Position numbers and translations under genes: made by a program. The notes under the pieces were generated by a model. The model did not search any database. It was not told the origin of the DNA and was given only the letters and a program-made list of their open reading frames with translations. From Methylophilaceae bacterium (GTDB taxonomy: Bacteria > Pseudomonadota > Gammaproteobacteria > Burkholderiales > Methylophilaceae), in contig BJGS01000001.1 of the NCBI GenBank assembly GCA_014190615.1, positions 1-38,994 on the forward strand: 38,994 nt of DNA. The letters run 5' to 3'. This document shows, piece by piece, positions 1,522 to 14,835 of this stretch (position 1 is its first letter; the number at the start of each line of letters is the position of its first letter).

Positions 1522-2526
1522 ATGAAAAAAGTACGTTGGGGTATTCTAGGAGCAGCTCGTGTCAATGAACGTCTTCTTCCGGCTATTGCGAATAGTCCTT
1601 TTGGTGAACTCGTTGCTATTGGAAGTAGGAGGCAGAATGCAGCGACAGAATGTTTGGAAAAATACCAGCCTACACTTGTAGGAAAAGTTCAAACCTTCGA
1701 TTCCTTAGATGAAGTGATTAATCATCCTAATATAGACGCTATTTACATCCCACTTTCAAATGAAGAGCATACTAAGCCCGCTCTTAAAGCTATTTATAAT
1801 AAAAAACATGTGCTCATAGAAAAACCGATCACACTTCATTCAAAAGAAGTTGAATTAATTCAAGAAGCGGCTGATAAAAATCACGTTAAAGTGATGGAAG
1901 GTTTTATGTACGTCTTTCATCCACAGTTTAATCGTGTAAAAGAAATCATTAGCTCAGGATTGTTAGGTGATGTTCAGTATGTACATTCTATGTTTTCTTT
2001 TCCGATCCAACCCGCACGTTTTTATCGTATCGATCGATCAATTGAAAATGGTGGCGGTGCTCTCTGGGATATTGGGCCTTATGCTATTCATACGATTCGA
2101 CAATGCTTTAATCAGAACCCTCTATCAGTTATTGCAACAAGCCATCTCAACGATCACGCTGCAGATCTCACAACTTCAGGCATGATTGATTTTGGTCTGA
2201 ATCGACGCGCTCAATTTGATATTAGCTTTGAATGTATACGACGTTCTCAATTTGAAATATTTGGATCAAAAGGGAAGTTGATGTGTCACACCGTATGGCA
2301 GCATGAAAATGATGAGGCACAATTAACCATCACAACAGATGCAGATGGCTTAAAGAATGAGCGCATTGAAAAAGGCAATCACTTTGCACTTGAGATTGAT
2401 CACTTTAACCAATGCATCGTCAATGATACTTTGCCGAAACTTTCTCTAGATGATGCACTTTGGAATACAAAAACATTAGAAGCGATTCAGGCATCTATAA
2501 AAACAAAAGCCTGGATAAATCTTTAA
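1522..2526 (+). CDS. Gfo/Idh/MocA family oxidoreductase
   Basis: Rossmann start VRWGILGAARVNERLLPAI, AIYIPLSNEEHTKPALKAI, HVLIEKPITL motif. Confidence 0.93.
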   Translation: MKKVRWGILGAARVNERLLPAIANSPFGELVAIGSRRQNAATECLEKYQPTLVGKVQTFDSLDEVINHPNIDAIYIPLSNEEHTKPALKAIYNKKHVLIEKPITLHSKEVELIQEAADKNHVKVMEGFMYVFHPQFNRVKEIISSGLLGDVQYVHSMFSFPIQPARFYRIDRSIENGGGALWDIGPYAIHTIRQCFNQNPLSVIATSHLNDHAADLTTSGMIDFGLNRRAQFDISFECIRRSQFEIFGSKGKLMCHTVWQHENDEAQLTITTDADGLKNERIEKGNHFALEIDHFNQCIVNDTLPKLSLDDALWNTKTLEAIQASIKTKAWINL

Positions 2527-2539
2527 AAGCATTAAAAAC

Positions 2540-2570
2540 AAAAAAGCCCGCATTTAGCGGGCTTTTTTTA
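2540..2570 (+). terminator. Rho-independent terminator (probably bidirectional) between the Gfo/Idh gene and pqqA
   Basis: aaaaaAGCCCGCatttaGCGGGCTttttttt hairpin followed by a T-run, with an A-run on the other side. Confidence 0.9.
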
Positions 2571-2581
2571 AATCTGAATAA

Positions 2582-2653
2582 TTATTTATTCATTACATAC
2601 ATTGTAACTTCGAAACCGAAACGCATTTCAGTAGCAGCTGGAGTTGTCCACAT
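2582..2653 (-). CDS. pqqA: PQQ precursor peptide PqqA (23 aa)
   Basis: Reverse-strand ATG..TAA encodes MWTTPAATEMRFGFEVTMYVMNK, matching the PqqA pattern MW.KPA.T(D/E).R.GFEVTMY with the conserved E-x-x-x-Y; aaaagga lies upstream as ribosome-binding site. Below the length cut-off of the supplied ORF track. Confidence 0.93.
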   Translation of the reverse strand: MWTTPAATEMRFGFEVTMYVMNK

Positions 2654-2747
2654 GATGTTGATCCTTTTATTTAAGTTAATAAGAAATTACTTAAATGTAA
2701 TCTTACTCGAACTTAAAAAGTAAACACCTTAAGGATCATGAATGAGG

Positions 2748-2766
2748 TCTCATGAAAATCATGAGA
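2748..2766. promoter_or_regulatory. Perfect inverted repeat upstream of pqqA (candidate operator)
   Basis: TCTCATGA-AAA-TCATGAGA, 8-bp arms; a third TCATGA lies at 2736-2741. Confidence 0.4.
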
Positions 2767-12170: not shown

Positions 12171-12725
12171 TCACTCAGAAACTTTTGCTTCAGTGGTTTT
12201 TGTTTTAACCTTTTTTTGCGGGGCTAAAACCATCACCATTTGTCGACCTTCCATTTTCGGAAATTGTTCGACGACTGCATAATCTAGTAAATCTTGTTCC
12301 ACACGTTTTAAAATTGCTAAACCATATTCTTGATGCGTAATTTCTCGACCTCTAAAACGTAAGGTAATTTTTGCCTTATCGCCATCTGAGAGGAACCCAA
12401 TGAGGTTTCGTATTTTGATGTTGTAATCACCATCATCTGTTCCCGGTCTAAACTTTACTTCTTTAATCTTGACCTGCTTTTGTTTCAAGCGAGTTTCGTG
12501 TTGCTTTTTACTTTCTGCATATTTAAATTTACCGTAATCGAGTAACCGACATACGGGGGGTAAGGCTTGTGGAGCAATTTCCACCAAATCAATATCTATC
12601 TCTTCTGCTTTTGCAAATGCCTCAGCTAGTGTCACTATGCCAAGCGCTTCGCCGTTTACGCCAATTAATCGAATTTCTGGAGCTGTAATATCCCCGTTAA
12701 TTCTGACTTCTTTCTCTTGAGCGAT
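12171..12725 (-). CDS. infC: Translation initiation factor IF-3, likely starting at ATC
   Basis: Extending the track ORF (GTG at 12635) upstream gives (ATC)[43 protein letters not shown], the conserved IF3 N-terminus; SD aggggA lies 6-7 nt before the ATC. Confidence 0.9.
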
Positions 12726-12771
12726 AACAAATCCCCTGTAAATATAAAAGAAAAACCGCGCTACCTGATCA

Positions 12772-14679
12772 CTAGACTTTAGTTTGAACTTCCTGATTTA
12801 GTCGATCAATCAATAACTTAATCGACATGGATCCTAAGTCTTCGCCTTTTCGGGTTCGCACGGCAACTTGCCCAGCTTCCATTTCCTTTTCTCCTACAAT
12901 TAAGAGATAAGGAATCTTTTGTAAGCTATGTTCGCGTATTTTATAGGTTATTTTCTCATTTCTCAAGTCAGAATCGCATCGGATGTGGTTTTTCTTGAGT
13001 TCATCCATGACTTTTGAGGCGTAGTCTGCGTGTGCGTCAGCAATATTGAGGATAACTGCTTGTGTTGGGGCAAGCCAAAGGGGCATGGCACCTGAGTAAT
13101 GCTCAATGAGAATCCCGATAAAACGCTCCATAGACCCTACTATCGCCCGATGAAGCATGACAGGATGCTTGCGGCTATTGTCTTCAGTGACATATTCGGC
13201 ACCTAGGCGCTCTGGCAGGTTAAAGTCGAGCTGGATTGTGCCGCATTGCCAAAGACGGCTTAAACTATCTTTAAGGGTAAATTCGATCTTAGGGCCATAA
13301 AAAGCCCCCTCTCCCGGTTGAAGGTCAAATTCAAGCTTATTTTCAAGCAAAGCAGCTTTTAGGGCGGTTTCAGCCTTATCCCAAGTCTCGTCTGAACCTA
13401 CACGCTTTTCAGGACGGGTAGACAATTTAACCAAAACATCCTTAAATCCAAAGTCTTGGTAGGCCTTATAAAGCATGATGATAAATTTAGCGACTTCATC
13501 CTTAATTTGTTCTTCGGTGCAAAAAATATGAGCATCATCTTGGGTAAACTCTCGAACACGCATTAAGCCATGAAGCGATCCTGAAGGCTCATTGCGATGG
13601 CATGAACCGAATTCTGCAAGTCTTAAAGGCAGCTCACGATAACTATGCAGTGCATTATTAAAAATTTGAATGTGTCCAGGGCAATTCATAGGCTTAACTG
13701 CATAATCTCTATTTTCAGAAGAAGTCGTAAACATATTGTCCCGATAGTTCTGCCAATGCCCTGATTTTTCCCATAAGGACTTATCCATCACGGTAGGCGT
13801 CTTAACTTCCTGATATCCAAAATCTAAAAACATTTTGCGCATGTAATGTTCAACTTCAAGCCAAATTGACCATCCTTTAGGATGCCAGAACACCATGCCG
13901 GGTGCTTCATCTTGCATGTGAAATAAATCGAGTTGTTTGCCTAATTTACGGTGATCTCTTTTTTCTGCTTCTTCCAACATAAAGAGATAATTTTGTAAGT
14001 CCTCTTTATTCGTCCAAGCAGTGCCATAGATTCTTTGTAGCATTTCATTTTTAGAATCTCCACGCCAATAAGCACCGGCGACCTTCATTAATTTAAATAC
14101 TTTTAATTTACCAGTCGATGGCACATGGGGGCCTCGACAAAGATCTGTAAATTCACCTTCGGTATACAAAGAAACTTCCTGATCTGCGGGGATCGATTCG
14201 ATAATTTCAGCTTTATAATTTTCTTTAATTGATTTGAAGTATTGAACTGCGTCATTCCGTGGCATGACTTTTCGTGTAATAGGTAAATCGCGATTCGCGA
14301 TTTCCGTCATTTTTTTTTCAATTTTTTCTAAATCTTCAGGTGTGAAAGGTCTTTGATATGAAAAGTCATAATAAAACCCTTGATCAATCACAGGGCCAAT
14401 AGTGACTTGTGCATCTGGAAATAATTCTTTAACGGCGTAAGCTAAAAGATGCGCTGTTGAATGACGAATGACCTCAAGTCCTTCAGGATTTTTGTCAGTG
14501 ATAATTGCAAGATCGCTATCCTCACGAATCACAAATGAAAGATCAACTAGCTGATTGTTGACAAGGCCAGCAAGGGCAGCACGCGCAAGGCCAGCACCAA
14601 TATTTTGTGCAACCTCTGCAACAGTCACATCACTTTCGAATTGTCGCTTAGACCCGTCTGGTAATCTTATTTCAGGCAT
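12772..14679 (-). CDS. thrS: Threonine-tRNA ligase
   Basis: 635 aa with TGS, editing ([34 protein letters not shown]) and class II catalytic domains. Confidence 0.99.
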
Positions 14680-14758
14680 AGTTGAATTGAGTAATTAGAA
14701 TGCATCATTTTATAAGCTTTTCTGCCTTCTTGATAGCTTGAACAATGAAGCAAGAAAT

Positions 14759-14835
14759 TGGTAGGCGCGATTGGACTCGAACCAACGACCCCCACCATGT
14801 CAAGGTGGTGCTCTAACCAGCTGAGCTACGCGCCT
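14759..14835 (-). tRNA. tRNA-Val(GAC)
   Basis: Reverse complement AGGCGCGTAGCTCAGCTGGTTAGAGCACCACCTTGACATGGTGGGGGTCGTTGGTTCGAGTCCAATCGCGCCTACCA. Confidence 0.97.

Follow-up and report, generated by a model that had tools for sequence, protein, structure and literature searches.

The gene that lies at positions 2582-2653 on the minus strand of the 38,994-nucleotide stretch that we have analyzed, referred to throughout as the window, is, on the grounds of profile matches and conservation, a genuine pqqA. We consider it very probable that it is a functional, stand-alone pqqA of the streamlined freshwater methylotroph Candidatus Methylopumilus, in which pqqA lies outside the operon and a dyad-binding protein would jointly control the pqqA copies and pqqBCDE. 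What we have observed directly is the identity of the gene, its copy number, the purifying selection acting on it, its detachment from the operon in complete congeneric genomes and the distribution of the upstream box.

In the PqqA family Glu15 and Tyr19 of the 23-residue peptide are cross-linked by PqqE/PqqD, and PQQ, which serves XoxF methanol dehydrogenase as its cofactor, is released in further steps; both are established for the family and, by homology, the same chemistry and gene function would be expected here. Since each PQQ made would consume one PqqA, and PqqB-E act as enzymes, precursor supply could be raised by several short single-gene transcription units without more enzyme. In Methylopumilus pqqA has left the pqqBCDE operon altogether, yet one dyad, TCATGA-N3-TCATGA, is retained in front of both main copies of pqqA and of the operon that lacks it. 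According to the scheme that we propose, one DNA-binding protein, probably an activator, would act through this dyad to control precursor supply and processing together.

The window gene and its surroundings

The features of the locus on which the discussion below depends are as follows.

2582-2653, minus strand: pqqA, encoding the 23-residue PQQ precursor peptide MWTTPAATEMRFGFEVTMYVMNK, with an ATG start and the Glu15/Tyr19 cross-link pair (profile matches, conservation)
2661-2668, minus strand: ribosome-binding site AAAAGGAT (sequence); orthologous copies keep AAAAGGATMAACATC-ATG
2540-2568, minus strand: intrinsic terminator AAAAAAGCCCGCTAAATGCGGGCTTTTTT, located where pqqA and the oxidoreductase gene converge, kept in orthologues
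2700-2705, minus strand: candidate -10 hexamer TAAGAT, 44 nt from the box (alignment reading)
2723-2728, minus strand: weak -35-like GGTGTT, 17 nt 5' of the -10 candidate (alignment reading)
2738-2764, minus strand: putative operator ('pqq box'), consisting of the dyad TCATGATTTTCATGA at 2750-2764 and a third half-site TTCAT at 2738-2742 (conservation, pattern searches)
1522-2526, plus strand: Gfo/Idh/MocA-family oxidoreductase, a convergent, conserved neighbor outside PQQ synthesis (profile scan, synteny)

The peptide scores well above the cut-offs of both curated models, PF08042 (40.3 bits, 3e-10, against 21.1) and TIGR02107 (38.8 bits, 5.6e-10, against 20), and the Glu-x-x-x-Tyr pair expected in a PqqA of ∼22-24 residues is present as Glu15 and Tyr19 and is invariant in 30/30 copies from the genus. 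Chance can be set aside as the origin of the open reading frame because between one and three copies occur in all 15 congeneric genomes searched. The original prediction of an orphan 23-residue pqqA with the Glu-x-x-x-Tyr crosslink motif, its own ribosome-binding site, a terminator directly downstream and no pqqBCDE nearby is thus borne out: the reading frame is as described, AAAGGA sits 8 nt 5' of the ATG, a 12-pair hairpin followed by a T run occupies 2568-2540 (minus strand; one such terminator found as compared to 0.3 in shuffles), and no pqqBCDE was seen around pqqA within the window. A search of PHROGs gave no match to the peptide, and no chain in the PDB matches it by sequence.

A sigma-70 promoter scan gave no good match at the proposed -10/-35 and no more sites than in shuffles, so that the two promoter elements are read from the alignment, where pqqA copies keep GTGTWT at the -35-like position and the second copy of the draft genome, on contig C5, has TATAGT at the aligned -10 position, 45 nt from its box. 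An Rfam scan of the window returned tRNAs and one borderline match only, with no riboswitch near pqqA; the borderline match, to the HPnc0260 antisense RNA at 14661-14797 (plus strand, 59.4 bits against a gathering threshold of 59), overlaps a tRNA on the opposite strand and is probably spurious. Upstream of pqqA and on the same strand is a lysine-rich open reading frame of 22 residues, MGSKDKRKESKGKKPQPKPAKV, at 2826-2894, without a Pfam match and inside a region conserved at the DNA level in congeners. Some congeners (L088/L140, L091/L138) have an extra ∼0.8 kb relative to the window, beyond the small reading frames upstream of pqqA and orthologous to window position ∼3520.

The draft genome from which the window derives (1,218,605 bases in 134 contigs, 85.6% complete, the window lying within contig C1) is a member of the genus Candidatus Methylopumilus, family Methylophilaceae. 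The closest relatives of the oxidoreductase neighbor, at 83-93% protein identity, are mostly Candidatus Methylopumilus or Methylophilaceae records, including Ca. M. universalis MMS-RIV-52, and the pqqA region is colinear with congeners over ∼4 kb at 78-91% DNA identity. The suggestion that the organism is a methylotroph gains support both from synteny of the locus with Ca. M. universalis MMS-RIV-52 (85.5% DNA identity) and from an XoxF-type PQQ methanol dehydrogenase at C25:7002-8672, found by profile search (TIGR03075, 602.9 bits), which also answers the earlier question of whether the genome holds a PQQ-dependent dehydrogenase.

Copy number and separation from pqqBCDE

The gene had been called possibly multicopy, and the draft does contain a second pqqA, at C5:24444-24512, whose peptide is identical to that of the window copy and whose DNA differs from it at 10 of 72 bases, all silently. 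Over all 30 copies from the genus the lone peptide change is Ala6 to Ser in one copy of one genome (G002), and the DNA shows at most 10 changes relative to the window copy, every one silent save that leading to Ser. A near-invariant peptide together with silent DNA changes establishes the window pqqA as a coding gene under purifying selection. Beyond the genus up to 11 copies per genome are found elsewhere in Methylophilaceae, and pqqA is present in 42 of the 61 genomes searched, including all 37 from this family. Some congeners possess a third class of pqqA with other upstream sequence and a weak box (L079 and L084 in G013 and G015, L075 and L089 in G004 and G002), which is absent from the draft as far as it is assembled.

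It is unlikely that the window copy is a decayed or redundant leftover, with the other copy supplying all of the PQQ that is needed. The two peptides are identical, as redundancy would have it, and one of multiple pqqA genes in Methylovorus reportedly contributes dominantly, going by the title of work by Ge et al. from 2015 to which PMC9851590 refers. Further, in a methylotrophic PQQ producer whose five pqqA copies, of which three are separate, are unequally transcribed, some copies are nearly silent (PMC9851590). However, most of the genus has retained the orthologous copy in spite of genome reduction, with an invariant peptide, ribosome-binding site, terminator and box, and neutral drift would break a gene of 23 codons. 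Methylophilaceae are reported to have 3-12 pqqA copies, usually with the remaining pqq genes in a single set (PMC4109929), and with multi-copy stand-alone pqqA thus already documented in the family the window gene, read as functional, is an ordinary case of something known.

In complete Methylopumilus genomes pqqA is wholly detached from pqqBCDE, with pqqC more than 100 kb from every pqqA; in G013, for example, pqqC is at 592,972 and the pqqA genes are at 424,492, 468,709 and 1,193,511. The usual arrangement, not a strictly defining one, has pqqA directly before pqqB, and this was found in none of the nine Methylopumilus genomes where the start of pqqB is present; the surroundings of pqqBCDE that were inspected in the genus likewise contain no pqqA. 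In three genomes from elsewhere in the family (G018, G024, G036, from other genera) one pqqA lies ∼1 to 2 kb 5' of pqqC, which places it immediately in front of pqqB.

Absence of pqqBCDE from the genome was the observation that the original prediction had set against itself, and on the surface it is what the draft gives, since profile searches of this 85.6% complete assembly found none of pqqB, pqqC and pqqE. A weak pqqE match on C89 (45 bits against a cut-off of 381) was dismissed, as all 14 control genomes also produce matches below the cut-off. The missing genes, together with the added PQQ that the medium for marine OM43 strains receives (PMC9004378), are what could be expected of a cofactor auxotroph, a species without pqqBCDE whose orphan peptide is unused or has another role. 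We regard this as very unlikely. When the 13,001-base pqqBCDE region of a congener (L106 of G015) is aligned to the draft, matches are obtained at its two ends only: bases 1-2172 run to the last base (3775 of 3775) of contig C84, and bases 12274-12999 resume at base 2 of contig C72. The ∼10 kb that includes pqqBCDE in congeners is thus missing as a block between the end of C84 and the start of C72, along with a hisC-like gene and other housekeeping genes. Because matches stop and resume at contig ends and housekeeping genes are lost in the same block, the absence is best read as an assembly gap, and pqqC is found in all 13 of the searched genomes that are at least 90% complete.

A dyad common to pqqA and pqqB

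Alignment of 30 pqqA copies reveals a conserved upstream block in which a third TCAT half-site comes after the core, the dyad TCATGA-N3-TCATGA. The window copy and most Methylophilaceae copies are preceded by this dyad at a distance of ∼105 nt. A Methylopumilus genome of 1.2-1.4 Mb contains the exact form only one to three times, and almost always in front of pqqA. In the draft it precedes both pqqA copies and is found at one further site, on C59; this extra dyad, apparently one orthologous site that is also seen on C1 of G002 and C1 of G005, lies in a bioF-like coding region in the latter two genomes and was taken as chance. Scores of at least 10/12 are reached by 44 of 59 distinct Methylophilaceae pqqA upstream regions and by 0.8% of shuffles, a threshold that is not by itself specific because 18 of 356 unrelated upstream regions reach it as well. 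All five pqqA copies of one further genome (G034) have a box within three mismatches of the long form.

The box is not limited to the precursor gene. The pqqA-less pqqBCDE operon has CTCATGGATTTCATGAG, a one-mismatch version of the pqqA box, at -103 to -105 of pqqB in all nine testable Methylopumilus genomes (for instance at about 5315 of L106, and also in L104 and congeners), and a strict search of eight genomes for the exact form CTCATGNNNTYCATGAG gave no matches apart from those at pqqB and at the window pqqA's orthologue. The two xoxF upstream regions that were checked gave background box scores only, so that a regulon defined in this manner would exclude the enzyme that uses PQQ. With the dyad almost confined to the upstream regions of pqqA and pqqB, we infer a small PQQ regulon in which it would serve as the putative operator common to the pqqA copies and pqqBCDE. 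Alternatively, the dyad could have been copied along with pqqA and not selected.

Read as an operator, the box suggests common control, since the window copy shares it with the other pqqA and, in congeners, with pqqBCDE. The earlier suggestion that the gene is separately regulated is better worded as separately transcribed. In the alignment-based promoter reading the center of the dyad is ∼64 nt upstream of the likely start site, where activators commonly bind, and the -35 is poor, so that the regulator acting through it is probably an activator rather than a repressor.

pqqA in phages, and known systems

The Methylophilaceae phage P19250A (KX815270.1, 28085-28153, minus strand) contains an unannotated pqqA whose peptide is identical to that of the window. 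MEP301, Venkman, MEP401 and MEP402 have pqqA genes that are 83-91% identical, at sites with no annotated gene, and in Melnitz and the Manatee Spring podovirus the site has been miscalled as a hypothetical gene on the opposite strand. Besides KX815270.1, the records concerned are MW452941, MT375522, OP830906, OP830907, MZ577095-98 and MW202481 (phage isolates of Methylophilaceae and OM43 bacteria and one environmental podovirus). Plausible ribosome-binding sites precede the phage copies, and box scoring of these copies found no host box above background.

At least 120 stretches of viral contigs in IMG/VR match a degenerate DNA pattern for pqqA. Among the matches listed, 101 loci (L239-L339) encode 28 distinct peptides, and 94 of the 105 pqqA sequences examined are distinct. 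Pairwise comparison of these sequences, again among the matches listed, yields 28,915 silent and 7,194 replacement codon differences, a ratio that is inflated because the search pattern itself fixed many residues, with the third-position variation nevertheless real. Four sampled contigs encode phage-type proteins (RecE-like exonuclease, UvsX-like recombinase, portal and DNA ligase). Five of the contigs (L271, L288, L292, L320, L335) have stretches that resemble host pqqA loci, and these contigs may not all be viral.

That the window copy was itself left by a phage is suggested by the 100% identical peptide encoded by P19250A, a phage of a Methylopumilus relative, but is highly improbable and was rejected: no phage-like neighbors were seen among the genes scanned at the locus, which is syntenic across the genus, the window copy has the host box that phage copies do not show above background, and the uptake of a host gene by phages is the simpler assumption. 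Turning from the origin of the window copy to the family as a whole, we lean slightly toward a Methylophilaceae-wide PQQ regulon operating through TCATGA-N3-TCATGA at dispersed pqqA genes and pqqBCDE, with phages almost universally carrying pqqA outside that control and so supplying cofactor for methanol oxidation during infection.

Because PQQ synthesis consumes the precursor peptide, methanol oxidation in abundant lake methylotrophs could plausibly be controlled through the gene dosage of pqqA; even with its genome stripped to about 1.3 Mb, the genus has retained two or three 72-bp pqqA genes at separate sites, together with a shared operator-like site in front of the enzyme operon. The pqqA genes overlooked in several groups of cultured phages suggest that this bottleneck is exploited by viruses as well, and cyanophages exploit photosynthesis genes in a comparable way. 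Tiny genes easily escape annotation, and pqqA has been missed or miscalled in the phage records examined. Overall, then, this is an ordinary gene in an interesting setting, of a kind already known; what appears to be undescribed is how completely pqqA is detached in the genus, that its box is shared with pqqBCDE and how widely phages carry it, none of which we found in the open-access literature searched. Text searches of two phage papers returned PQQ solely as a medium supplement for Melnitz (PMC9004378) and no mention of it for MEP401/402.

In length, in its conserved RFGFEVTMY core and in its Glu-x3-Tyr pair the window peptide resembles the PqqA family described by PF08042 and TIGR02107, with the difference that its gene has no adjoining pqqB and is a free-standing unit with its own terminator. 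Several dispersed copies in a methylotroph are likewise a feature of the multi-copy systems of Methylophilaceae (PMC4109929) and of the PQQ-producing strain (PMC9851590), although none of the papers found describes the shared box; that strain retains one pqqA in a pqqABCDE operon, unlike complete Methylopumilus genomes, where none is in the operon. Finally, pqqA has been reported as an auxiliary gene in one viral population of Lake Baikal methylotrophs, VP_266, in a study stating that P19250A has none of these genes (PMC7678222). VP_266 and the phages considered here are alike in that a stand-alone pqqA is carried by a Methylophilaceae virus; in contrast to that report, however, our search shows that P19250A encodes an identical pqqA and that the Venkman, MEP and Melnitz phages encode related versions.
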